The position numbers were made by a program, and so were the translations under genes. Below, one piece after another: positions 31,820-64,000 of a stretch of 64,000 nt of DNA (the stretch's first letter is position 1; each line of letters starts with the position of its first letter). The DNA lies in the NCBI GenBank assembly GCA_026770025.1, contig JAMXDE010000080.1, positions 57,912 to 121,911 on the forward strand, read 5' to 3'. The stretch comes from Craspedostauros australis (Eukaryota > Bacillariophyta > Bacillariophyceae > Mastogloiales > Achnanthaceae). The notes below the pieces were generated by a model. It had not been told where the DNA came from. It made no database searches and saw only the letters and a program-made list of their open reading frames with translations.

Positions 31820-32141
31820 CTTGCTTGTTGCTGCTGTTGTTGTTGTTCTCTTCCAGTGATAGAGATGTTGTGGTCTTGCACTCGACTGGTACGTTGCGTC
31901 ACTCTGGTCTGCTATACGACCACTCGATTCACTCCACTTTACTTCGACTGGGTTGTGGTCGATGTTCTGTTAAAGTGGAAGCCCAGCTTTGATTGGCGTC
32001 GTTGTTGGAGTGGCTAGATCGTTCTCTTTGTGGAGTCTCCGTGTCCAATCACTTCGTATTCCGCAACAGCCTTGGGCCTTGTGTGTCGATCATGAGGAAT
32101 TCAGTGTCTCTGCGCTCTTGCGGAATCGAGAGGAGATCCCG
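31820..32141. promoter_or_regulatory. Presumed promoter region of the 31819 GT61-like gene
   Basis: 322 bp between the ATG and the left target duplication (CCG, 32139-32141) of the TIR element. It includes a CTT/GTT-rich 5' leader (near 31820-31850). No core promoter motif could be assigned. Confidence 0.35.
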
Positions 32142-32165
32142 CAAGGCACGGGAAAAACGTTGAAA
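32142..32165 (+). repeat. Left TIR of TIR element copy 1
   Basis: 24 bp, starting CAAGGCACGGGAAAAACG. It pairs with 40166-40189 with two mismatches. The same sequence, with a few changes, ends the element at 47032-51142. Confidence 0.85.
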
Positions 32166-32318
32166 CACGACTTAGAGCGTGTTCGACCACTTCGACGATT
32201 TACTTTGAATCGCTGAAGCCATGTTGAAGTTCGACTCAACTGATTGCAACATTCGTTCTAGAATAACGTTTTTAACGTCTATATGTTCAAAAAGCGAACT
32301 CCAATGACAACAAACTGA

Positions 32319-32495
32319 TTCAATGAAAGTAATGACGTTTCAATGAAAGTAATGACGTTTCAATGAAAGTAATGACGATTCAATGAAAGTAATAACGATT
32401 CAATGAAAGTAATGACGATTCAATGAAAGTAATGACGTTTCAATGAAAGTAATAGCGTTTCAATGAAAGTAATGACGTTTCAATGAAAGTAATGT
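32319..32495 (+). repeat. 20-bp tandem array, nine copies
   Basis: Core TTCAATGAAAGTAAT followed by a short variable part (GACG, AACG, AGCG). Copies begin every 20 bp from 32319 to about 32479, with no slippage. On the other strand the core reads TACTTTCATTGAA, which is one base from the TACTTTCATCGAA core of TIR copy 2. Confidence 0.95.
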
Positions 32496-32585
32496 CGGAC
32501 CACGACTGAACGACGAAAACACGACTCACACGATTTTGTCGAAACTCGACACAACTCACACAACCGCACACGATGAATCAGTTTT

Positions 32586-33389
32586 GTGTCATTCCAAAAC
32601 AACAAGAACTTGATGTGCGCGCTGCCTACATCAGTGAATGCAGCGAACGATAACGCTGGTTATACATGTGTTCTTGGTGCAAGTACTACCATTGCGTACT
32701 TTGCACGATTGGTACATTCTCTATTTGGCATTGTTGTGACACAGCACAACTGCAAAGCCAGAGCAAGAGCAAGAGAGACTGCGATCTATTATATTATATT
32801 ACATTACATTATATTATATTATATCATGTTTGTGTGGTATGGCAGAGTAGCTCGCGCTAGTATGTACAAGTGCTCCACAACTATCAGTGCTGCATCAGCA
32901 GCAGTGCCATCGCTGAAGGTATGTAGAGATTTCCCATAAATAAGTACTGGCCATCACTTGTGTTCAGGCATGTCTGTCACCATCCCTCCAAACTGCCACA
33001 TCCCCACCACAAGAACTGCACCAGTCTACCTATACCTCCTGACAATCCATATAGGAGTTGATTGTTGCTTGAACCTGCGGCCACAGTGAACCCTTGTACA
33101 TGCAAGCCACACAGATGAAGTGGAGCACACCATTGGTCTAATCACAATAACAGCTCAAGGATTATACTCAATTCACATGAGAATGCACCGACTGCACTTT
33201 TCTCCTCCTCCTTTCTACTCTTCCACTCACAAAGAGGGGGTACGGAATCTGGTTGCTGCATTGGTGTGGCTGGTGATGTGGCCAGTGCTGTGGTACTGCA
33301 AGTTGTGCAGGATGCGGCAGCTGTTGTCATCCAGTTGGTCATCTGTTGGAGCTGACTTGAGTGCCAAAGTGCATGACCAACCATTTACA
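32586..33389. other. Internal part of TIR element copy 1, no gene
   Basis: Non-coding to my reading. An AT microsatellite-like tract (ATTATATTATATTACATTAC and similar) lies at about 32785-32825. Confidence 0.5.
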
Positions 33390-35390
33390 TAGCCCATTTG
33401 ATACTTCGACAGTATTGCCAAGGAAAGGGCGCAGCTGTTCCATCCAACATCCGCTTGCTGTCTGCGGATATTGTTATCAGAGGGAGAGTTCTGCCAACTG
33501 CTGAGCGGTGGCACGCCTCTGCTGATCTTTCTTGGCCTCCCCACGATACCGGCGGTGACCAAGGGGTGCGTTTTCCAGGCCTTCATTTTCTGTCACATCT
33601 CCGAAAGATCTTCACTCCATGTGGATTGCATGAGCAGGCCTTGGCACAACCACATGTGATTTATATACTTGGTCTTTCCGCATGTTGGGCACCTGTTTCT
33701 GGTCCGCACATGCCACTGCTTCATCCGTTTCCTAGACATGATCTTGCTGTGGACTAGCTTGAAGGTGGCGCATTGTTTGGATTCACTCAACCTGGGCATT
33801 GCAGCCACCAATGCAACTTGGTCTTGGCCGACTTCACAAATAAACCGGCTCCAGAGGAACCTATCCATGAATTGGCAATTCCAGAGCTGCCCTGGCATGG
33901 CCTTATATGTGATGGGGGAGGGGGGGGATAGCTTTGTGTGGAGATGATAGCAGGCTATACTCTCTCCGTGCACCACTGATGTCCAGGCAATGCTTCCTTG
34001 TATCTCCATGCACCGCCAGTGCAAACCTGCCAACATGTCCACCAACATGTTCATGTGCGCCCAAGGGTCCTTGGCAGGAAGCCCCTTGTTGTCCTGGTGC
34101 CCTTTGACATGCCATCCAGTAGCTCAAGACTGCAGGTTGCAGGCAATGAAATGAGTAGTGCTTGCTAGATCGCTGTCCGCATCCTCCAGCCTGACGGTGC
34201 GCGCTGGATCGAGAACCACAAGCACTGATGCGTTGTCACAGGCGAGCTGCACGCGCCATTTGATCCCATGGACCAATTCGGCATGCTAGATCCACGCAAA
34301 TATGCTGTAGATACCGGTGAGCTCTGCTTGATGCGGTTGCATCAGCTGGTTCCCGCATGGCACCTTGTTCACAAATGTGAATGTGGAGACAGGGGTCAGA
34401 AACGGTGGTTGAATTTCTGTGGCTGGAGTGCCGATTCCATTTTGGATGACCCGTCCCTGCAGGCCACGCATATTGTGTTGCCAACACTGGTGATGAAGGC
34501 TTCCTCTTCACCAGTGGACACCATTTGTTTGACCGACCATCATTGACTGCACTCGGTGCTGCGGAGCAGCTGGCTGATGATTGCATTCATCCTCACTGTT
34601 GGATCGATGCAGTTCAATATGCAGCCTGGGACTAGCTAGTCCCCTTGCCAAGTGTTCATGAACTGGTAGCAATGGCTTCATGAGGGTGGTGCCTGTCTGG
34701 TGATGATACGTGCCTCCCCTGATCCCTCTGCTACATGCCCAATACAATGATCTTTGGCCCACTTCCTGGACTATCTGGCCGTCCTCCAACAAGAGGTAGC
34801 CTGGATGTCTCGAAAACAGACCGTATCAGGCCCTTGGCCTAGCTTAGATGTTGTTGATCACAATATTGGCTCCTGGCCAGGAGATGATGGCCGACCACCA
34901 TAGTTTCCATTGGGATAGCTACCACAATCCAAGCGGCAGCCATTTCAGACTCAAGTGAGGTTTGGTGTGCTCTCTGGGATGTAGGACTTGCTGTCATATG
35001 GCCATCCCATTTGTGTTGAGCAGGTCTGACTTCCATATGGCTTACAGGTGCACCAGGCATTGATTGATCATAGCCTCTTGCTTCTAGGAGTATTCTACTA
35101 GGAGGATTACATCCCTAGTGAGTTGGTTGTTCTGTCTTGGCAGTTGGAGAGGGGAAATGGAGACCTACATACGCATGTCAGCCTGCCACGTATTTTCCTG
35201 CATCCGGGTAGACAATGTGGAAGTGCAGAGATGCTCCATTCCACTAGGGTAGCACAGCCACACCTCTGGCAGCCCTGTCTCAAGCACCATGGCTTCCACC
35301 ATGAAGCGGAGACGCTTACCAGTGGTGGAGTAGTACTCCGTTGATCTAGTTGGCACATCAACCCACAGCCAAGCATCCGTCACCCAACTC
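33390..35390 (-). pseudogene. Remnant of a retroelement polyprotein: RNase H and C-terminal zinc-finger-like region
   Basis: Minus-strand fragments in several frames read in a consistent order. First comes TEYYSTTGKRLRFMVEA (near 35340-35280). An RNase H start-like AAAWIVVAIPMETMVVG (near 34960) and HQAELTGIYSIFAWI (near 34330) follow. Next is LACDNASVLVVLDPART (near 34230-34180), then HVKGHQDNKGLPAKDPW (near 34090-34040). The last part is a putative zinc-binding segment CPTCGKTKYINHMWLC (near 33690-33640). Order and motifs fit the RNase H and following region of an RT polyprotein. The E and D of the RNase H core are still visible, but stops and shifts make it dead. The RT itself is not seen. 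It sits inside the TIR element, either captured or inserted. Confidence 0.6.
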
Positions 35391-35763
35391 CCATCACATC
35401 ATTCTGCCTCAGCCAAATACTCAAATGGGAGACTGACGCAATCGACCAAACGGCAAGGACGATCAACCAAATGAGTCTTTGTATCAGCAACAACGCAAGA
35501 AAGACAAGCAGAAATCAAAATGGTAACAACACTACAGCAACAGTTGCACCATGGAAGATATAATATTATACATCTGGAACCCTACTTCTACTGCTTGTGG
35601 TAATGTTATAGATTGTGTTGCACAGTAAGGGCAAGCACTTGTTGTTGTGCGTGTGTTTGCATCATGCGCACGATTTTGTTTTTGTTCGAATGGCGGTCCA
35701 AACGTGGATTCGTCAAATCGTGAATCAAAGGACTCCCACAAACATTCGATGTCAGTCGTGACG

Positions 35764-35910
35764 TTTCAATGAAAGTAATCACGATTCAATGAAAGTAATC
35801 AGGATTCAATGAAAGTAATCACGATTCAATGAAAGTAATCACGATTCAATGAAAGTAATCGCGTTTCAATGAAAGTAATAGCGTTTCAATGAAAGTAATG
35901 ACGTTTCAAT
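35764..35910 (+). repeat. 20-bp tandem array, right side of TIR element copy 1
   Basis: Seven full copies of the TTTCAATGAAAGTAAT core at 20-bp spacing. An eighth copy is cut in two by the Harbinger insertion: TTTCAAT at 35904-35910 and AATGAAAGTAAT at 40012-40023. It has the same orientation as the array at 32319-32495, so the two arrays are direct, not inverted, repeats. Confidence 0.93.
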
Positions 35911-35946
35911 AGAGAGTTATCGCATTGTTTGGATTTCCATCGAGAG
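35911..35946 (+). repeat. Left TIR of the Harbinger element
   Basis: Starts AGAGAGTTATCGCATTG and pairs with 39976-40011. Confidence 0.9.
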
Positions 35947-36454
35947 AGTCCCGTGAGGGAGTCATGACCTGATAGAGACATTTTCCCGGGGGGTGGCGAG
36001 AAATCACCCCCTCGCTCGATGGAAATTATTTCCATTCGTGCTGCACGAAAGGAAATTATTTCCATCGAGAGAGTGGATCTCCTTCGGGAGAGTCCCGGAA
36101 AAATGTATCATTTCCACATGGAATATAGACTTTGGCCAATCATGTTGCGCCATTTCGTTCTAGTTTAGTCCTTCTTGTCCTCCACATCCATCTACATTGG
36201 CCACCATCGTAGACTTTTGCGTTCGTTTTGGAACAACAAAGAGAAAAACATCATCCATCACATCGCCATCACATCGCCATCACATCACCAGCGCTCGATT
36301 CTCTCATCTCAAGACAATCATCCATCACAACCCACCTCATGACTACACCTCGATGCTCTGCTTGGACCAACATCTTGCACGAGTTATTCTGATCACCACC
36401 ACAGACCACTGCACGTGTGGCTTCTGACACATAGTCTTCTTCCTGATATTCGTC

Positions 36455-37885
36455 ATGGACGGCTCTCCTCCTCCCGCTGATCCATCTATCGCCCCGTCGG
36501 AGACCAACAGCGACAGCGAGGTCACGACGAGTGGAAGGACTGGCGCACCAGCAACCTTTGTCTTTCCACCACCTGTGTTAGCCAAGAACGAGAAGCTCCC
36601 ACCTGGCTTTGAACACTGCACTTTCAGGTTCACGCTGGCGCAGCCTCAAGCCAACGTTGGTGCTGCCTTCGACGCGCGCAATGGCGACGACACCGATGCG
36701 ATGGCTGACTCTGGGAAGCCTCGCGCTTCACCATCAGGCACCCATCAGCCTCCGGCGCAACCATCGCCACCAAGCAACAGCAACAGCAACAACAGCAACA
36801 ACAAGAAGCGTGCGTACCGACGCAAGAAGGCGCCTCCACCTTCTTCCGTATCCTCTGTGGTGGCGACAGCGAGCGATGGCAACTTGGAATCCTCCGCCAG
36901 CGATTCTGCCCCGGTCGCCCGCCAATCCAGACGAACATCCTTCCCTCCCATGTACTATGATCTGAAGGGGAAGGTTGACTATTTCCCATGGCTGGTGAGC
37001 CCCCAGCCATGCGACCGAATCCTCATCGACGTCGTCGCCAGGGCTCCAAAAAAGCCATGGATACGTCCATACGGAGTCGCGTGGAGTGCAATCTGCCATG
37101 CAGTGCATGTTGAGAATTCGACGGTCTTTCCCACCGTCCCAACCAAGAAATCGCTCAAAGGGAGATTCGAAAATCTCATGAGCTTCACAGCTCAATACAA
37201 CCATGCCCATCCTCACAGGAGCGGCATGCATGAGAGTATCAAACTGTGGCTGGACGACCTCACCGAAATTCAACGGGATCGCCAGGAGTACATTGACGAT
37301 GCAATCGCATCCTCCCGAGAAACTGTGGGGCGCAAGAGGATTTCCACAAGGCAGGAGCAATGTATGCTTGGACGTCGCCCTCCTCGAATGCAGTCGCAAG
37401 CTGGGGCAGCGAGAACAGCACAGAGACAGAATGCGGCGGCGAGCAACAGCGACGACGCGACCTCAAGTTCGTCTTCTGTGGAGGTGGTAGCTTCCCCTAA
37501 ACGAAGCCCCAACGCACAACAGCAAATCCAGCAAACAGTCGGTCTCCTCGAGAAACTGGACGAAACTCAACGCCAGTTTCAAGCATGGCTCTCCACAGCC
37601 ATGCCTCCACGCCGTGCAGAACGCACAGAAGATTCTCCGATTGCTGCATCGCTCGCTGCTTCTCCGACCCCTCCAACTGTGGGGACAGCAGCAGCTTCCA
37701 ACAACAGCAACAGCGATCTCCTCCAGCTCGTGTTGAATCAGCATCAAATGATGATCAACATGAACCGCCATCTGGAGGAGGATAGGAAACAGGCGCAGCG
37801 CGAGACCTCACAGTTGCGCGAGTCGCAAATGAAGCTCTCGTCTGACGTCAGGTCTCTCGTCGACGCCCTATCTGGACCTCAACGC

Positions 37886-37921
<36 letters not shown>

Positions 37922-37984
37922 GACGACGACGACGACGAAGACAACAGCAGCAGCTGCAATGGCGACGACGGTGCGGGAAAATGA
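36455..37984 (+). CDS. Harbinger accessory protein, Myb/SANT-like DNA-binding
   Basis: 509 aa, ATG at 36455. The N-terminal 150 residues are low-complexity, with P/S/N/Q-rich runs and a basic KKRAYRRKKAPPP patch. A central globular region (about 165-280) has tryptophans and a motif, WSAICHAVH then TKKSLKGRFENLMSFTAQY, that fits the trihelix/Myb-SANT fold of Harbinger second proteins. A glutamine-rich predicted coiled coil follows near 350-450 (QQIQQTVGLLEKLDETQRQF), and the tail is an N/D/E-rich repeat. In this superfamily the second protein binds the element ends and helps bring the transposase to the nucleus. The Myb assignment rests on weak motifs and on its position beside the transposase. 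Confidence 0.65.
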
Positions 37985-38414
37985 TACTCACCCATTCTTT
38001 CCTCTCTGCATTTTCACATTTCATACCTTCTTTCCCGCAACCCCTCACATTTCGCAACACATCAACCAACCCATTCGTCGTGACATGCGTCGATCCAATT
38101 CGATGATCCATCCTTCAATGCATGCATGCATCCATTCATTCCATCCATTCATTCCTCTCTCCGCGCAAGAGACACTCCACCATGGCATACCAATCAACAC
38201 CAAGTAGAGAAGCCGACGCGCTGAAGCTCATGTGCGCACAGCCGCATGGTTCCTTCCGCGTCCACATGCATTCCATCAGAAAATCATTCCCATCATTCGC
38301 TCACCGCACGCAGCACAACACACACAGCACAAGTGCCTGCGCGCCATGAGTACTACATAATAGTTAGTCGAATGCGTATTACATGTACCTCATTAATTCT
38401 AACTGTTTGAATGC
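37985..38414. other. Intergenic between convergent Harbinger genes
   Basis: 430 bp separating the two stop codons. It is T/C-rich, with CATGCATG and CATTCATT repeats (38110-38150). No gene is seen. Confidence 0.5.
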
Positions 38415-39629
38415 TCATGGGATCAGGTTGATGTATTCTTCGAATGTCAGCTTGTGCGATTGGTACCGTGAAGACTGCTGATTACCATTCATGGTGCAAT
38501 GAATGTTGGCGAGGAACGCAGCAACAAAATTAATGTGTGTGAGAGGATTCAGCAGTGTTTTGTTGGCACTGCGAACGCTGACGAGGGGAAAATTTTTCGT
38601 GATCTCCTTGAATGCCCACTCAACACAGATGCGTCCCGACGACATGTCCTTGTTGCACTGCGCCTCGGAGGACCCTGGAACAGTGTCCTTGTATGCAGCG
38701 AATATGTATGGATTAGTAGGATATGCTGCATCACCATAGAGACGATATGGAGGATTGTTCTCATCCAACGGCATGAGAGCCTCCAATCGCTGTTCGATTT
38801 TGCTTTGCTGGAACATGTACCCGTCACTGCGAGCACCCGCAATCGGCCCAAAGTAGTGGATCATCAACCCATCTGGTGCAACGATGCCTTGATAGTGCAA
38901 CCCATGAGCGCGTTTATAGCCAGAGTATAGGCCTTTTTGATTCTCCTTCGGGCGACACGTTTCCCACAACGTGCCGTCGACATAAGCAATCACATCGTCC
39001 ACCAAGCCGTGGGTGAGACGGTGGTTGTTGTTCGCATAGTCAGGGAATCGAGTATGAAACAAACCAATGTCGCTCAGGTACGGCTTGCCAATGGCATAGA
39101 AGTAGGAGTAGAAAGTGGAGGCAATGCTGGAAATGCGGTTGCTGTCCATGCTGAATTTCTCTTCCATGTCACACAGCCGCCCGCGATGTGCCAGACGGAA
39201 CAGCATGACGAGCAATCCCATTTCGTATGATACCGTGTATCGATTCTTCACCTGAATGCATGCAGGATCTAACTCACCAGACACTGCCTGGAATTTGGGC
39301 CAGAGACGGTCAGCCAGACGTTGGAGATCACACGCACGGAAACGAAAGTGACGAACACTTTCGCGGTCGTCCAGTTCCGCGATGGCAATATTCCTGTTGG
39401 TGAACATGGGAGGAGGTCCCAATGGAGTGAGGTAGAGTTGCTGCATCTGTAGCACATGACGGCCCAATGCGACGATGTTGCTATAGTGCTGAATCAAAAT
39501 GACGACTCCTGCATAATCCAGACGTTGGACGTCGATGTCTGCAAGTTGAACGATGGCAGCCTCAAATCGAGCGCTGGCTTCTTGCAATGCCTGCCGCTCG
39601 GGAACGGTATTCCAGTTACGATTGACCAT
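38415..39629 (-). CDS. PIF/Harbinger-type DDE transposase
   Basis: 404 aa, ATG at 39629, stop TGA at 38415. A helical N-terminal part (about 90-180) precedes the DDE_Tnp_4-type catalytic core. Its motifs are VDGTLWETCRP (D218), KRAHGLHYQGIVAPDGL, GPIAGARSDG, LYGDAAYPTNPYI (D300) and GRICVEWAFKEITKNF (E337), giving a complete D-D-E triad. In the family this enzyme cuts the element out and reinserts it, usually with 3-bp duplications. The AAT duplication here agrees in length but departs slightly from the common TWA. The length is typical and no frame damage was seen. It lies opposite the accessory gene inside intact TIRs. Confidence 0.9.
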   Translation of the reverse strand: MVNRNWNTVPERQALQEASARFEAAIVQLADIDVQRLDYAGVVILIQHYSNIVALGRHVLQMQQLYLTPLGPPPMFTNRNIAIAELDDRESVRHFRFRACDLQRLADRLWPKFQAVSGELDPACIQVKNRYTVSYEMGLLVMLFRLAHRGRLCDMEEKFSMDSNRISSIASTFYSYFYAIGKPYLSDIGLFHTRFPDYANNNHRLTHGLVDDVIAYVDGTLWETCRPKENQKGLYSGYKRAHGLHYQGIVAPDGLMIHYFGPIAGARSDGYMFQQSKIEQRLEALMPLDENNPPYRLYGDAAYPTNPYIFAAYKDTVPGSSEAQCNKDMSSGRICVEWAFKEITKNFPLVSVRSANKTLLNPLTHINFVAAFLANIHCTMNGNQQSSRYQSHKLTFEEYINLIP

Positions 39630-39975
39630 GGCAACGATGGTAAGTAATAATCGAACGCGTGGAGGAGCTGCGTGTGCGAAGGTGCGATGAACACAGAAGA
39701 ATTGAAGGAGCAGCGATTATAGCATGACATGTAGCATGGAGGGAATGCATCATGCAACATCAAAAAAGGAACCGATGATGTGTTGTGACACTCATGACCA
39801 AAATGTGACGCTCTTCGGGAGAAGTGAAAGCGAACATGTCTAAATTAGATACCCTAGAGATGGCGCGAACGGTTATTGACTCCACGTAATCCAAGCAGTA
39901 TTCTGTCACGCAACAGTCCTGTGCAGTTTCCGTCACTCGAGACTCCATGTCACATGTGACATGGCGCCTGGGGGC
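39630..39975. other. Upstream region of the Harbinger transposase
   Basis: About 345 bp between the transposase ATG and the right TIR. It should carry the transposase promoter. A small palindrome, CATGTCACATGTGACATG, lies at 39947-39964 near the TIR. Confidence 0.45.
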
Positions 39976-40011
39976 CTCTCGATGGAAATCGCAACAATGC
40001 GATAACTCTCT
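39976..40011 (-). repeat. Right TIR of the Harbinger element
   Basis: Inverse complement of 35911-35946 with two mismatches. It is followed by the second AAT. Confidence 0.9.
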
Positions 40012-40165
40012 AATGAAAGTAATAAAATCGACGTTACCGCCTATAACGTCTATTTAACCTTCACATATTGGAACATCGGAGTTGGTCTTGGCTCGTCGGC
40101 GTCGAGGAGTGCCTCGAACACGGGATTGGTGTGGCGAAGGGCGTTTGTCCGTTCTCCGGACACAC

Positions 40166-40189
40166 TTTCAACGAATTTCCCGTGCCTTG
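40166..40189 (-). repeat. Right TIR of TIR element copy 1
   Basis: 24 bp, ending ATTTCCCGTGCCTTG, followed by CCG. It is complementary to 32142-32165. Confidence 0.85.
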
Positions 40190-41714
40190 CCGATGATGTG
40201 ATCTGTTCGTGTGCTGGTTGCGTCTGGTGGTGGTCGTCATTGGAGGGGTTCGGGTGGCTATTTTCGTTGGCCTGGCTGGCGACCCCAGCCAATCAAATGG
40301 CTTACTACTCCACTCGGGAGGATACGGAAAAGCACAGACCAGCGCGTCAAGTCTTGGGACGTATCTAAATTGTTAATCCTGCCTTTCGAAAAAGGTCTGA
40401 AAATATCCCTAATGACGTTTTGCTTGCGTCCGGACGCAAATTGGGCCAATTTGCGTGGGGACGCAAATGGAAGGTCGCCGAAAATGCCACTTGTACTACT
40501 TAAGTCCCATGTTCCTCCACGATGTCCCGTGTTGCAGAAAAAAACGTGCTTTGCCTCCGAAACCCGAAAACGGTTTTCTTTTTCTGACTCCTTCGAGTAA
40601 CGCATTTATTTGGCGATTTCACAAAAAAACCCACGATGCAGCACGGCGTCATTGGTCATGTCTCAGGGGTTCCTTTCCGTGCGCCTGACTTGCTTTTCTG
40701 ACGTCATGGGATCTGAGGTAATAAAATTTTACTTTTTGATTTCGATGTCATCCACCACGATCCTGACAACAACACCAAAATCCTGGCAACGGTGTAACAC
40801 AACAAGGAGGGAGGCGCACGAATCATGATTATTGTTTGTTCAATTCCCACAACTGCAACGATTATTATCAATTTAAGACATGAGGCATGTCGTGAGTCGA
40901 GCTGGCCAGCGCAAGAGGATTTGAAAAAAAACGGCTTCCCGTAAAGCGTATTTGAGCGAGTCCGTTGAGTCGCCGCTTGCGTCCGGACGCAAGCTACGTA
41001 GGCCAGTATCAGGCCAACATCATTAGGGGTATACGCAAGTGTTGCTGTTGCTGTTGCTGTTGCCGTGAACGTGGACGTGTCAGGAAGCCGCCACCAACGC
41101 TGCGCTGCTTGACACAACACGCACAAACGTGGAAACACCCAAATGGGCCAAATGACCAACAACGCGAGGAATCAACGCAACACCGAATCTGCCGCAACAT
41201 CACCATCCACACCGTTGGATACCATCGCCGTCTGATATCGACCGTCAAAGACGTCATCATTTTCGTCCGCGGTGAAGACAAGCCAGCCAGGTATTTATGT
41301 CGTAGAAGCTAGCTAAATATATCTAACCCTACTGGACAACACGAAAAATCATGTTCTAAAAATATCATGTTTTACGATGTCAAATCCGCAAGAACGTACG
41401 TGCGAACCCTGAATGGGGTCGTATGAGGATGTGTGATGTGAATTGTATTACAGCGCGCCGCGCGTTGGGGGTGTCAGACACTTGTAAGATTGAGCGCTCC
41501 ATGGCTTTCTTGTCCCAGCGACGCTCTCCCAAGCCCGCTGATACTGTCTACCGATGGATGGCGAGATCCTTTCGATACTACGGTTGTGCTGAAGACCGAA
41601 TTATGAAGGTGATTTGTCATCATCCGTATGGTGGCTGGCCCAAACCCTTCAAGACTTGGATTTGGTGTGGAACCGGAGGAGGATTGTGCTCGTGCTCTTA
41701 CTCCCACAGGGCGC
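40190..41714. other. Intergenic with two copies of a perfect palindrome
   Basis: No gene recognised. TTGCGTCCGGACGCAA occurs at 40424-40439 and again, extended to 20 bp, at 40975-40994. A (TTGCTG)n-like run lies at 41040-41066. The region holds the 3' flank of the gene ending at 41715. Confidence 0.5.
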
Positions 41715-46859: not shown

Positions 46860-47031
46860 TGTCGAGATGTACATGTGAGTATATGTCGAGATGTATGTGT
46901 ATATGTGCATCGTTCACCCGCTATTCTCTCATACGCACTTGGACGGTACAACTACACTCGTGTAGATAGTATAATGTGATTCGTCAGAATTACAGCGGAA
47001 ATGGAACACACAAAAAGGTGCAAGATTTCTG
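46860..47031 (+). repeat. Solo LTR of copia family A, left piece
   Basis: Begins TGTCGAGATGTACATG like the LTRs at 5346 and 12485, and runs to GCAAGATTTCTG, where TIR element copy 2 has inserted. It continues at 51143. No copia coding region is attached, so it is a solo LTR. No 5-bp duplication is visible around it (ACGGA and GCCAA). Confidence 0.88.
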
Positions 47032-47055
47032 CAAGACACGGGAATTTCGCCGAAA
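47032..47055 (+). repeat. Left TIR of TIR element copy 2
   Basis: 24 bp, one mismatch to the complement of 51119-51142. Confidence 0.9.
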
Positions 47056-47198
47056 GTTCGCGGAGACCACATGCGCAAGACTCCAATCAGCCCAGTCCCG
47101 TTCACAACCACGTCAAAACCCCAATGAGTCGGACGGGGAGACCGAGCCCGTGTGTCACGACGTTAACTAGACGTTATAGACGTTACGAGTAGTAATGT

Positions 47199-47331
47199 TA
47201 CTTTCATCGAAGTCCTGTTACTTTCATCGAAGTGACATTACTTTCATCGAAGCGTGACTACTTTCATCGAACCCGTGTTACTTTCATCGAATGGTTGCGA
47301 CCATCATTGGCGCGTGCGTACTTTCGTCGAA
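47199..47331 (+). repeat. 20-bp array of TACTTTCATCGAA, left
   Basis: Copies start at 47199, 47219, 47239, 47259 and 47279. One variant starts at 47319, still in the 20-bp phase. The 13-bp core is constant, while the 7 bp between cores vary (for example GTCCTGT, GTGACAT, GCGTGAC). The motif AGACGTTATAGACGTTACG precedes it. Confidence 0.93.
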
Positions 47332-47389
47332 ACGCCACCAACCAATTTTGTGCGAAGCTGTGAGTCATGTTATTCTGTTGGTTCACGAG

Positions 47390-47755
47390 GAAATCCACGA
47401 ACCAGCCCTTTCGAAGTCCCGAATTCCGCCAGCCAGTCGATTTTCACAGCACTCAGTTGCACAAAACGTGTGAGCGACATCTCGTGGACACAGAGATTTC
47501 ACATCGACCTCCAAGGCCAGAATATAAATGTAGACCGCCTGTATCACACAGGAAAAGTACAAGCCACATCATACATGTTTGTCATACTGGTAACATTAAC
47601 CAGTGCATATGAACATACATCATCTAATGAAAGGAATGAATGCCTACTATAGTTGTAGATATGTGCATCATTCACCTGTTTGCTCCAATTCTGTGTTTTG
47701 TGGATTTTATTCTGACCAAGTCTTCATTGAAAAGTATAAACATATTCCATCTAAA
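47390..47755 (+). repeat. Left inverted arm of TIR element copy 2
   Basis: Complementary to 50035-50420. The best-kept part is GTATCACACAGGAAAAGTAC and what follows (47541-47582), which pairs with 50221-50268 with one mismatch. The arm also contains a stretch resembling the early part of the family-A LTR (ATATGTGCATCATTCACC). Confidence 0.75.
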
Positions 47756-48119
47756 CAAGATCAGAGCATTGAGATCATTTCAATGGTTATACTACCAGCT
47801 TGCGAGTGACTGGATCCATCTAGAAGTTGTTGCACATTGTACGCGATCAAATCACATGATACCGCACGGCGACTCTGCGCGGTATGCAGGGTTTTGACCA
47901 AACCTTCATATGAAAGATCCAACATCTGCAATTCTACCAACATCGTCATAGTGAAAGTGCTTCAATGGGTATGGGGGTGGTTTCCAAGTATCTGGATCCG
48001 TCTGGAAGGAATCCTGGTATCCAAATCTATGAACCTCATCATACTGTGCGGTACGCTTGACTCTGTGCTGCATTACGCATATCTATGCATTTAGCAGGCT
48101 GTTTTGAGAGATATGATCA

Positions 48120-48760
48120 ACTGCGTAGCTCCAAACACGCTCCAAAGAGTACAGTCATGAAGTTTGAAGTCTTAGCTCCATTTGGAAGGGATCTAATTCT
48201 ACAGATGCTGATATTACGCAGTACTGAACAGTACGTGTCGCACTGGGCAGTGATTTGGATATTTGTGCATGGGAACTGTCGATCGTATTCTGATCCAACA
48301 CTACAACCACTCCAACCATACATCACAGAATATGGGCATGGAGTTGGAAGCCCCTAGATCCGTCAGGAAGGCATCCAATTTCATGGATGCTCATATCACA
48401 TGGGGCTGAAAGATACGCCTCGCGTTGTACAGTGTTCTGCGCATATGTGCATAGACAACATTGATCATACTCCACACAAACACTTCAGTCACTCCGCATG
48501 CAATCTAAAGAGTACGCAAATGGTGGTGGAAATGCAAGATCCATCTGTATGGGATCCATTCTTACAGATGCTGTTGTCACGCAGTACTGCCTGGGACGCA
48601 TCTCTACAGTAGGCATCGCCTTGAGCAGTATTCCACACATTTATGCCTTTGGTTGGCTGCCTTGAGACATGCGACTGCTGAACACTCCAAGTAGACTTCA
48701 ATGGCTATGGCTGTGGAGTTTGAAGTCCTTGGTCCATTTTGAAGAGATCTAATTCTACTG
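48120..48760. repeat. Three diverged copies of an internal repeat in TIR element copy 2
   Basis: Segments around GGATCTAATTCTACAGATGCTGATAT recur at about 48140-48235, 48490-48600 and 48680-48785. Related sequence appears in reverse at about 49808-49860. Divergence is high, so the boundaries are approximate. Confidence 0.5.
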
Positions 48761-49010
48761 ATGCTGACATCAAGCAGCGCTCAGCAGCGTCGTGACATGA
48801 GGTTCACCTGAGGGCATGTTGATGCGCCTTGCTAGTGGGTGTGCAGCTTCCAACTCCATGACTGCCCTCCATGGAGTGCGTTTGGACTCGCCGAGGTGCT
48901 ACATTGAATATGATTGACATTTTCTGTGCACATCTGCTCAGGACGCTGAGCAGCATGATGCGTATGTTTCAGTACTGCAGGATATCAGCATCAGTAGAAT
49001 TAGATCCCGT

Positions 49011-49792
49011 TGTTGGGATGTATATGTGTATGTGCATCGCTCACCCAGTGTTCTCTCACCCCGTGTGCGCTGAGCAGCATTGACATTTGCATCATTGGCC
49101 ATCAACGGTTGTGTGAATCACGAACCAAAATTATGCAAGCCACTTTTGTGCCCAACGTCGGACAGACGCGAGACAGGAAATCTGAGAGTATCAGATGTTC
49201 GATCTGCCCACTCATCCAGAAACCTATGATATCGATACTGGATCGGTATGTTTGCCAACTGAGCCTCAAATGACACCAACCTGATACTCCGACAGCATCG
49301 TCAATGGAATATGGAATCAGCACATCCATAGAACGACGATGACTGACGTTGACTCAGAAGTCCATGCCATTCGAACTGACAGCTGGTTCGGAATCAGAAC
49401 AGAAGGTAGGAATCTTATGATTGAAGTATCATGGCGATTGTCAAAGGTGCAAGGTGCAGAGAATGCATGGCACTGACTACTACATGCAAAGTAGTGGACT
49501 AGTAGAAGGAGGAAGATCGAGATTATGTCGAATACACGCTATCATGCGTGGTATTAGCACACAATATCAGCATAGAGAGAGAATATGACTAGCAGCAAGA
49601 GAGCATCTCATGTGCCAACTCATAGTCAGACGGACGAACCACTGAGAGCATCAGGTAGACAAGAGATTTCAAGAGCATCGAAGAGACACTAAGAGTATTG
49701 GAGTAGCAACGTAATGAACTAACAAGAGTATTGTAACAACCAACACCATCATCAACAATGCCAAGGCCATTCGTGTGCGGAACTTGCCAACA
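49011..49792 (+). repeat. Diverged family-A-like LTR inside TIR element copy 2
   Basis: It starts with TATATGTGTATGTGCATCGC-type sequence like the family-A LTR and ends GCGGAACTTGCCAACA. Its length (782 bp) is close to the 789-795 bp of the family. The middle shares patches such as AAATCTGAGAGTATCAGA, CCTCAAATGAC and CCAACTCATAGTCAGACGGA. It is clearly older than the other copies. Confidence 0.65.
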
Positions 49793-50034
49793 TCCCTTCC
49801 AGGCGAATCAAGGACTTCAAACTCCATGGTCGTACTCTTTAGAGTGTGATTGGAGTGGTGCCGTTGGTCAGATCTCACAAAATGGCCTGAGGAATGCGTA
49901 GACATGCAGAAGATTGTGCAGCATCAAGCGTAGCGCTGAGTATGACGAGGTTCATAGATTTGGATATCAGCATCTCTTCCAGATGGATAAATACACTTGC
50001 TAGCTGGCAGCATACCCATTGGAATGCTTGGGAT

Positions 50035-50420
50035 GCACTATTCTTGTTAAAGTGTAATATTTTATCCTTTCCTATGAAGGTTTAGTCAGCATACGATCCA
50101 CGATGTACATAATTGGAGCAAACAGATGGATGATGCACATATCTACAGCTGAAGTAGGCATTTATCCCTTCATTAGACAATGTGCGTTGATAGGAACTTA
50201 TTAATGTCACAATGCTAAAAGTATGATAAACATGTATGATGTGGCTTGTACTTTTCCTGTGTGATACAGGTGGCCTACATGTATACACTAGCCTTGGATG
50301 CCAATGCGAAATCTCCGTGTCCATGGAATGTCGCGTGGACATTTCGACGTTTTGAGTCGCGACAGAGCACAAAATAAACTGGTTGGTGGAAATTGGGTGG
50401 TTCGTGAATTTCCGCGTTGG
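50035..50420 (-). repeat. Right inverted arm of TIR element copy 2
   Basis: Complement of 47390-47755. Confidence 0.75.
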
Positions 50421-50815
50421 TCGACGGTCTGATGACGGACGGAGCGGCGGCAAATTCTCCTACCCGCTGCGTCTGCTGAGACAGTCAGAGTGCACACACA
50501 ACGCACACCCGTCGCGTCTGCCGATCGTCACACGTTCACCATTATCCCACGCCGCAGGCTACGCTCTTTCCAGCTGCACTGCAATTCTGTCTGGAACACT
50601 CCAAATTCTCTGCTGCCTTTGCTTCCTCTTTTTGGTGAATGTTGGTGTGCCAATTGGTTGGCTGATTGCTGAGTTCTTCCTCTGTAATGCGGAGTGACAC
50701 AGATTGGCACGGGGTTTCGGGCTCTTGTTTTTGTCATTGGGTCTTGTTGCAACAGAATGGCTGTTTGGACACGAGTTGGTTTCTTGAACCGTTGTGGCGC
50801 AGGTTGCAGAATGTC

Positions 50816-50968
50816 CGCTTTCATCGGACTCGCCGGACCTTTGTCGGACTATTGGTACTTTCATCGAACTGGTCTTAGTTTCATCGAACTGGTGGTACTT
50901 TCATCGAACTGGTGGTACTTTCATCGAAGTGATGGTACTTTCATCGAACTGGTGGTACTTTCATCGAA
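50816..50968 (+). repeat. 20-bp array of TACTTTCATCGAA, right
   Basis: Good copies start at 50856, 50876, 50896, 50916, 50936 and 50956. Two decayed copies at 50816 and 50836 keep the phase. The orientation is the same as in the left array. An AGACGTTAAATGCGTTA motif follows (51007-51023). Confidence 0.93.
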
Positions 50969-51118
50969 CTTGTGTTCGTTGGAAGGTGTTCGGTATTCAA
51001 ACCAAAAGACGTTAAATGCGTTAAACTACAAATTCAATGGTGGTCCATTGAGTCCACCCAGATTTCGTTTGGGCCATTTTGGGATTAGTCCATGTGGTCG
51101 AACGCAAACGGCATCGAG

Positions 51119-51142
51119 TTTCAGCGAAATTCCCGTGTCTTG
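51119..51142 (-). repeat. Right TIR of TIR element copy 2
   Basis: Ends GAAATTCCCGTGTCTTG, followed by the second CTG. Confidence 0.9.
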
Positions 51143-51771
51143 CTGGAGGAAATTTGCAAATAACGATTTCTGAGAGAATCAGAAGATCGTCCGTCCATCC
51201 ATCAATGGTACCAAGAGAATCTCGAGGTACTTCCCAACTAAACCTCAGATGACGATATCATCTGACAGACTGCTGCATCACCAATGGAACGTGACATCTG
51301 GAGAGCAGAAGGACGCCTACTGACGTCGACAAGATGTCAACATGTCACCACGTCAACAGCTGTCTCCAAGTCAGAGCAGGAGGCGAAGATGCGATGACCC
51401 ATGAAGATCAGCATCATGGATACTGAAGGTGAACTTCAAATGGTAAGTACTCATGGAGTAGGAGCCAGTACTGAATGAACGAAGTGTTGAATGTGGAGTA
51501 CGCATCGAACACGGAGTATTGTGTAGCACGAAGTACACGATGTTGAGAGAGAGAGAGAGAATACAGAGAGGAGCGAGAGAGGATCTCGCGTACCAACTCA
51601 TAGTTGGAGACTGAATCTACAAAGCAGATTGAAGCGCCGAGAGCATCGGGCAAGAGAGCTGGTGTACACCAAGAGGATCGGAGTAGCCAACTATTGAAAT
51701 AGCAAACGAACGACTATCAACCAACACCACCTTCCACGATCGTAGGTTTCCGTGAGCGGAACTTGCCAACA
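51143..51771 (+). repeat. Solo LTR of copia family A, right piece
   Basis: Continues the LTR interrupted at 47031, from CTGGAGGAAATTTGC to GGAACTTGCCAACA. Joined, the two pieces give about 798 bp, the family length. It has more substitutions than the pair around element A. Confidence 0.9.
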
Positions 51772-63627: not shown

Positions 63628-64000
63628 GGTTAGGGTTAGGGTTAGGGTTAGGGTTAGGGTTAGGGTTAGGGTTAGGGTTAGGGTTAGGGTTAGGGTTAGG
63701 GTTAGGGTTAGGGGTTAGGGTTAGGGTTAGGGTTAGGGTTAGGGTTAGGGTTAGGGTTAGGGTTAGGGTTAGGGTTAGGGTTAGGGTTAGGGTTAGGGTT
63801 AGGGTTAGGGTTAGGGTTAGGGTTAGGGTTAGGGTTAGGGTTAGGGTTAGGGTTAGGGTTAGGGTTAGGGTTAGGGTTAGGGTTAGGGTTAGGGTTAGGG
63901 TTAGGGTTAGGGTTAGGGTTAGGGTTAGGGTTAGGGTTAGGGTTAGGGTTAGGGTTAGGGTTAGGGTTAGGGTTAGGGTTAGGGGTTAGGGGTTAGGGTT
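63628..64000 (+). repeat. Telomere, (TTAGGG)n
   Basis: About 62 tandem TTAGGG repeats reaching the last base, with the G-rich strand running 5' to 3' outward as expected at a right chromosome end. TTAGGGG variants occur near 63711 and in the last 20 bp. Telomerase-type repeats of this sequence are known in diatoms and many other eukaryotes. Confidence 0.98.

Follow-up and report, generated by a model that had tools for sequence, protein, structure and literature searches.

Two transposable elements are considered here, both within a 64,000-nt stretch of the genome of the diatom Craspedostauros australis (assembly GCA_026770025.1, contig JAMXDE010000080.1, positions 57,912 to 121,911) which we call the window. 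Among the described systems which come close to them is NuwaI, a group of PHIS transposons (PIF/Harbinger relatives). In the passages of Han et al. (2015, PMC4482050) that deal with it, NuwaI is reported from animals only; its terminal inverted repeats (TIRs) usually start with GGG, and an autonomous copy measures about 4.5 kb on average and in most cases contains two open reading frames (ORFs), one for the transposase and one for a Myb/SANT protein. The function of additional ORFs in PHIS elements is called unknown in the same text. Harbinger3_DR, a zebrafish element of the PIF/Harbinger group, offers a parallel in design, since a Myb-like protein there binds a 9-bp subterminal motif (PMC9710019); the account of that motif mentions no 20-bp phased direct array. 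CACTA/EnSpm elements likewise possess many subterminal repeats and a 3-bp duplication, with TNPA as a separate repeat-binding protein, but the repeats described for a soybean element vary in length, are asymmetric and include inverted as well as direct ones, and its TIR and transposase are different (PMC2613891). Galileo, a member of the P superfamily, also has several transposase-binding sites in tandem repeats near its ends (PMC3688188, in the part describing them); these lie inside long inverted TIRs and so should be mirrored between the ends rather than direct, and the transposase is of the P type.

The window elements are non-autonomous members of a presumably cut-and-paste TIR family with fixed polarity, in which short cores recur every 20 bp and point the same way at both ends. 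We consider it probable that in this PHIS family an element protein recognises the phased arrays at both ends while the transposase acts at the TIRs. Searches of open-licence literature listed no title or abstract opening that deals with PHIS elements bearing direct arrays in phase, or with a diatom family of this kind.

Copies in the window and in the genome

The sequence-only reading of this DNA had recognised two elements with a common 24-bp TIR and 3-bp duplications, CCG and CTG, and all of this was found again. Copy 1 (32142–40189) has CCG/CCG flanks, and its TIRs match at 22 of the 24 positions; copy 2 (47032–51142) has CTG/CTG flanks, and its TIRs match at 23. Cores stand every 20 bp, on one strand, at both ends of either copy, and decayed or missing units stay in phase, as had also been noted: the copy 2 unit at 47319 lies +40 from 47279, and that at 50856 lies +40 from a decayed unit at 50816. 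The features are listed below, with target site duplication abbreviated as TSD.

32139..32141: left TSD of copy 1, CCG
32142..32165, + strand: 24-bp TIR, A end of copy 1
32273..32280, - strand: AGACGTTA motif, A end of copy 1
32319..32491, - strand: A-end array of copy 1, nine units at 20-bp spacing that read TTCAATGAAAGTA on the + strand
35765..35897, - strand: B-end array of copy 1, seven units at 20 bp; the nested element interrupts one more, whose remainder follows from 40012
35911..40011: nested Harbinger-type element in copy 1, outside the family; TIR AGAGAGTTATCGCATTGTT, AAT duplication
40044..40051, - strand: AGACGTTA motif, B end of copy 1
40166..40189, - strand: 24-bp TIR, B end of copy 1
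40190..40192: right TSD of copy 1, CCG
47029..47031: left TSD of copy 2, CTG, from the flank reading and empty sites
47032..47055, + strand: 24-bp TIR, B end of copy 2, containing the core-like motif CGCCGAAA
47169..47185, + strand: two AGACGTTA motifs, B end of copy 2
47199..47331, + strand: B-end array of copy 2, TACTTTCATCGAA (reverse strand TTCGATGAAAGTA), five units at 20 bp and one more at +40
47474..50334: interior of copy 2, lacking family genes; its arms 47474-47597 / 50211-50334, among others, form an imperfect foldback
50856..50968, + strand: A-end array of copy 2, six units at 20 bp, of which one is altered at a single base, direction as in the B-end array; decayed in-phase unit at 50816
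51007..51014, + strand: AGACGTTA motif, A end of copy 2
51119..51142, - strand: 24-bp TIR, A end of copy 2
51143..51145: right TSD of copy 2, CTG, from the flank reading and empty sites

The AGACGTTA motif is in direct orientation at both ends of each window copy. Because a nested 4.1-kb element separates the right-hand array of copy 1 from its TIR, the outer element amounts to about 3.94 kb and one unit is left next to the B-end TIR. Copy 2 interrupts repeat sequence. Its flanks, joined with a single CTG, were covered over 217 of 217 bases at 96–97% identity in all 40 scored places (1128 candidates); since the joined flanks match an uninterrupted repeat elsewhere in the genome, the borders of copy 2 are exact, and the certainty claimed for them was justified. 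Its interior consists of a set of inverted repeats, all of them imperfect (85% over 124 nt, 81% over 110 nt and 74% over 230 nt). None of the family genes introduced below (TP, P2b, P2 and P3) was found within the window.

The TIR pattern CAAGRCACGGGAA has 58 + 59 = 117 matches in the 74.8-Mb genome against 2 + 2 = 4 for the reversed pattern, and is therefore not a chance occurrence. Both ends could be read in 43 elements with consistent borders, namely 38 whole ones, three longer ones from terminal stretches and the two of the window. The 41 elements outside the window take up 82 of the 100 listed TIR places, and duplications were read for those and for the window's own four; they were left unread at 18 listed places (which lack a close partner or belong to long or nested pairs on C11, C27 and C35) and at 17 others minus the window's four. 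A perfect 3-bp duplication flanks 43 of the 43 elements: CAG or CTG in 40, and CCG, CGG and TAG in one each. The target is thus CNG in 42 of 43, the preference suggested from the two window copies, and CWG in 40. The TIR starts with CAAG in all 43, a start for which the search pattern selected. The genome also yields 88 matches to silicon-transporter genes (best E 4.2e-249), in keeping with a diatom host; of 14 control genomes one gave a signal, and none passed the cut-off.

Phased arrays with a single direction

The majority direction of GAAASTA is equal at both ends in 40 of 40 elements and in three of three more, that is, in 43 of 43; the polarity which the sequence-only reading had deduced from direct arrays between inverted TIRs is thus a property of the family. 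Between successive units of the 40 elements we counted 582 spacings of 20 bp, 27 of 40 bp and no others (n=609). Over the whole genome, one GAAASTA follows another at 20 bp in 820 cases, at 8–19 bp in 12 and at 21–37 bp in eight; reversed-pattern controls gave 352, 131 and 121 for the same classes, exceeding the matches at spacings other than 20 bp. As the reversed core ATSAAAG is another, commoner word which can also match the arrays (ATGAAAG), the comparison rests on the spacings of one word. Of the 40 elements, 38 have their first unit 181–186 bp from the A end, and 38 have it 171–176 bp from the B end. At the A end of L042 a single exact unit is present. The TIR itself carries a core-like GAAA motif which, unlike the arrays, is mirrored between the ends. 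Cores vary by subfamily (TTCAATGAAAGTA, TTCAATGAAACTA, TTCGATGAAAGTA, TTCGACGAAACTA, CGTTGAAACTA and CGTTGAAAGTACT), and that of one further subfamily is an alternating pair with a 40-bp super-unit.

The arrays might be nothing but ordinary tandem repeats, growing and shrinking by slippage or unequal exchange, with a spacing that reflects unit length and has no function. In some subfamilies the 20-bp units are indeed nearly identical, as after recent duplication (83 of 1800 positions differ in the L031 group, 14 of 460 in L050), and L033 shows a 40-bp higher-order unit. Set against this, 1434 of 12500 positions deviate from the subfamily consensus in 625 of 690 units (13 groups), and the core is kept while the filler diverges (W2, L046, L033 and L049), although the core columns look invariant because the units were picked by exact core, so that zero counts are built in. 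At the ratio found in the interiors (88 indels per 2167 substitutions) about 58 phase-shifting indels would be expected and none was seen among the 609 spacings; the expectation is a rough one, as the copies have common ancestry and units were selected by exact core. Furthermore one period prevails at both ends in all subfamilies seen, the distance to the TIR is nearly fixed, and short copies devoid of genes retain their arrays. Repeats of no function are therefore an unlikely explanation, in our judgement.

The array pattern was also met in two stretches of viral and 56 of prokaryote contigs. None of these 58 stretches has the TIR or encodes TP, P2, P2b or P3 at E 1e-3, and we take them to represent chance or other repeats.

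Genes and affinities of the family

Seven candidate autonomous copies of 6.4–7.6 kb (L045–L050 and L068) contain four ORFs which, from the A end to the B end, are TP (+), P2b (-), P2 (-) and P3 (+), alike in order and strands in all seven. No transposase had been seen in the window elements at first sight; one exists in these longer copies elsewhere. The catalytic part of TP corresponds to PF13359, DDE_Tnp_4 (9.7e-15 in L048 and 2.9e-15 in L050, the two copies tested), and at E up to 1 the transposase shows in addition only weak matches to DDE_Tnp_1, ISL3 and a DUF. A predicted short intron occupies one place in TP, with the donor GTAAG in five of the seven copies, GCAAG in two (L049 and L068) and an AG acceptor in all seven. 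Upstream, from a putative start, an arginine-rich, repetitive frame of 301–375 residues is open in L045, L047–L050 and L068; this N-terminal extension repeats RGR/RRG/RGG motifs, which we take to be loosely AT-hook-like. In the catalytic exon, at least 13 places in the genome reach a match of 80% or higher to TP. Its database relatives number 368 at E 1e-3, and the 120 listed include proteins of two diatoms, Mayamaea pseudoterrestris and, identified as such by its taxid, Pseudo-nitzschia arenysensis. We also observed 141 genome matches to the transposase, many at 36–52% identity and with several near-identical copies each; judged by these, DDE_Tnp_4 elements are a large expansion in this genome.

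P3 has 157–165 residues in six aligned copies, which are 59–99% identical to the P3 of L048, and an isoelectric point of 9.55–10.05. HHalign shows its two halves to be homologous (probability 97%, E 4.8e-11), making it two copies of a domain of about 50 residues. Eighteen database proteins are related to it, one of them from Thalassiosira sp. (E 1.1e-3); in viral contigs ten stretches fit the P3 pattern and none was confirmed. For P2 (367–387 residues) a database search at E 0.01 gave no relatives, and Pfam no match. P2b is acidic and likewise lacks a Pfam match, and five interior ORFs of mid-size copies gave none over the cut-off.

Folds were predicted for database homologues rather than for the family proteins. 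PHIS transposases are expected to have the first D between two strands, the second D between a strand and a helix, and the E in a helix. In the model of homologue P0001 (50% identical to TP), D208 would follow the strand 204–207 and E240 would lie in the helix 226–247; D132 is placed inside the strand 127–138, not between strands. A PDB fold search with the transposase homologue returned matches to integrases and transposases, all of them weak (best E 5.8e-3).

Fifteen copies of 0.97–1.38 kb match none of the family genes and have at least six exact units at each end. Nine of them are covered end to end by one long copy, four for 79–91%, and two are closer to mid-size types. The copies of 3.5–5.3 kb, including copy 2 and copy 1 minus its nested element, have little beyond the ends in common with any long copy. 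Two of the 40 elements, L053 (438 bp) and L054 (572 bp), consist of an A arm, one unbroken array and a B arm, with CTG and CAG duplications of their own; their simplest origin would be recombination of the two direct arrays with each other, or slippage between them.

One might suppose that the arrays are promoter or enhancer sites which drive the element genes or serve their self-regulation, with a polarity that follows transcription, which would proceed toward the transposase from the A end. Promoters are directional, and the A end is upstream of TP in seven of seven long copies. However, an equal array stands at the B end, beyond P3, and the 15 short copies, which have none of the genes, all retain both arrays. 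As the sole role of the arrays this is quite doubtful, but they may combine regulation with end recognition.

Because its transposase is of the DDE_Tnp_4 type, the family belongs to PHIS and not to CACTA. The transposase is alignable over the catalytic region below the PHIS threshold of E <1e-4, the Pfam model here standing in for PHIS transposases. The TWA duplication of the PIF/Harbinger group was found in none of the 43 elements. With NuwaI, as portrayed in PMC4482050, the family has in common a DDE transposase of the superfamily, the 5'-CWG-3' duplication (40 of 43, the rest being CCG, CGG and TAG), a short TIR and a separate accessory ORF. It differs in a TIR starting with CAAG instead of GGG (the start selected by our pattern), in the length of its long copies, in its diatom host, in its phased arrays and in its four shared ORFs, among which P2, P2b and P3 show no Myb/SANT match, a very divergent one being possible. 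By description it would be a PHIS family which adjoins NuwaI in TSD and transposase and stands apart in TIR start, ORF number, Myb/SANT and host. That it is a CACTA/EnSpm element with a changed TIR, a likeness raised by the sequence-only reading, can practically be dismissed, for the 3-bp duplication, subterminal repeats and accessory proteins uphold the resemblance in design, but the TIR is not CACTA, the DDE_Tnp_4 transposase refutes membership and no CACTA transposase family was found at E up to 1 in the eight proteins scanned.

A related family (L071/L075 and L072/L076), 50–53% identical in the catalytic exon, also contains TP, P2 and P3, with neither their order nor their strands changed. 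Its P3 is 34–39% identical and its P2, found with five of seven P2 queries, 22–26%; P2b was sought there and not found, an acidic open frame being present at its place. A C or a G stands before its TIR, ACCGTCCGGTACTT; on this reading CAG duplications flank both of the two copies with both ends. We had regarded this family as truncated, a view dropped when four other copies revealed the true left end. One copy has GTTCTGAA direct at both ends (three left, four right and none reversed), at spacings of 19 in three of five cases and of 30 and 48 in the others. Since direct repeats and three genes are common to both, direct polarity and these genes may predate the 20-bp lock, as far as two families can indicate. 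Arrays were also tried, and given up, as a trait of all related transposases. A 46%-identical family (L073/L074) has no P3 match at E <0.1, and autocorrelation detected no array in it, the ends of that family being unresolved and the test insensitive enough to miss the weak repeats of the 50–53% relative as well.

The nested element (35911–40011) sits in the B-end array of copy 1 and has ORFs at 36455–37984 (+) and 38415–39629 (-), the latter with a DDE_Tnp_4 match (1.6e-20). Its AAT duplication and a TIR starting with AG fit the Pangu group of PHIS, as that group is characterised in PMC4482050; Pangu belongs to the same superfamily as the outer family, but its duplications are ANT as against CNG here. 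The protein of 38415–39629 was rejected as the family's own transposase: it belongs to the nested element, which is bounded by a TIR and an AAT duplication of its own, and its BLASTP similarity to TP is no better than chance (E 1.4). Directly after copy 1, 40317–40357 is an exact 41-bp match to the left end of the other DDE_Tnp_4-related family (L073 and L074). The window ends in a (GGTTAG)n array of at least 373 bp (63628–64000); because this is a telomere-type repeat the window may be subtelomeric.

Proposed recognition of the ends

On the reading which we prefer, recognition of the arrays by an element protein and action of the transposase at the TIRs, a PHIS transposase would cut at the TIRs and join the element to CWG targets. 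The element protein would bind YGAAASTA units cooperatively, units two turns apart facing one side of the helix, and once bound would mark both ends and bring them together; it would also act in trans on copies without genes. Direct arrays would break the two-fold symmetry of the TIRs, rendering the A and B ends distinct, and would allow recombination between arrays with deletion of the interior. P3 is our first, tentative candidate for the array binder, and as it contains two copies of its domain it might place one domain per helical turn. P2 and the arginine-rich extension of TP are other candidates.

Several observations weigh against this reading. Tandem duplication alone could hold arrays in phase. 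Minority-direction units occur, one each in L031, L032, L035, L039 and L022 and two in L045. The two solo-array copies have one array only, so that two separate arrays may not be required, and the divergent relative has TP, P2 and P3 yet few, loosely spaced repeats. The frame of the TP extension is broken up in L046, and that of P3 is interrupted in L068. Pfam matches of P3 are weak (best E 0.043 among six family copies, with HTH_71 in two of the six); its homologues reach 0.0025 at best (n=14), two of the 14 with an unrelated-looking ribonuclease family. A PDB fold search with the model of a P3 homologue (predicted template-modelling score, pTM, 0.44) gave no match.

A bolder proposal, which we regard as somewhat unlikely in its entirety, is that end recognition is polar rather than two-fold symmetric, with two-domain P3 lining the phase-locked 20-bp sites, one protein per unit and in one direction at both ends, and solo-array derivatives arising by recombination between the direct arrays in the manner of the solo long terminal repeats of retrotransposons. 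The complex that pairs the ends would then have to distinguish A from B.

Two features in the design of this PHIS-type transposon call for an explanation, its strict helical phasing and the direct, polar orientation of its arrays, and the family offers them in many similar copies whose borders are certain. Its gene-less and solo-array derivatives constitute natural deletion experiments. Moreover, subfamilies with different cores and with matching versions of P3, P2 and the transposase coexist in one genome, which makes the specificity of recognition directly testable.

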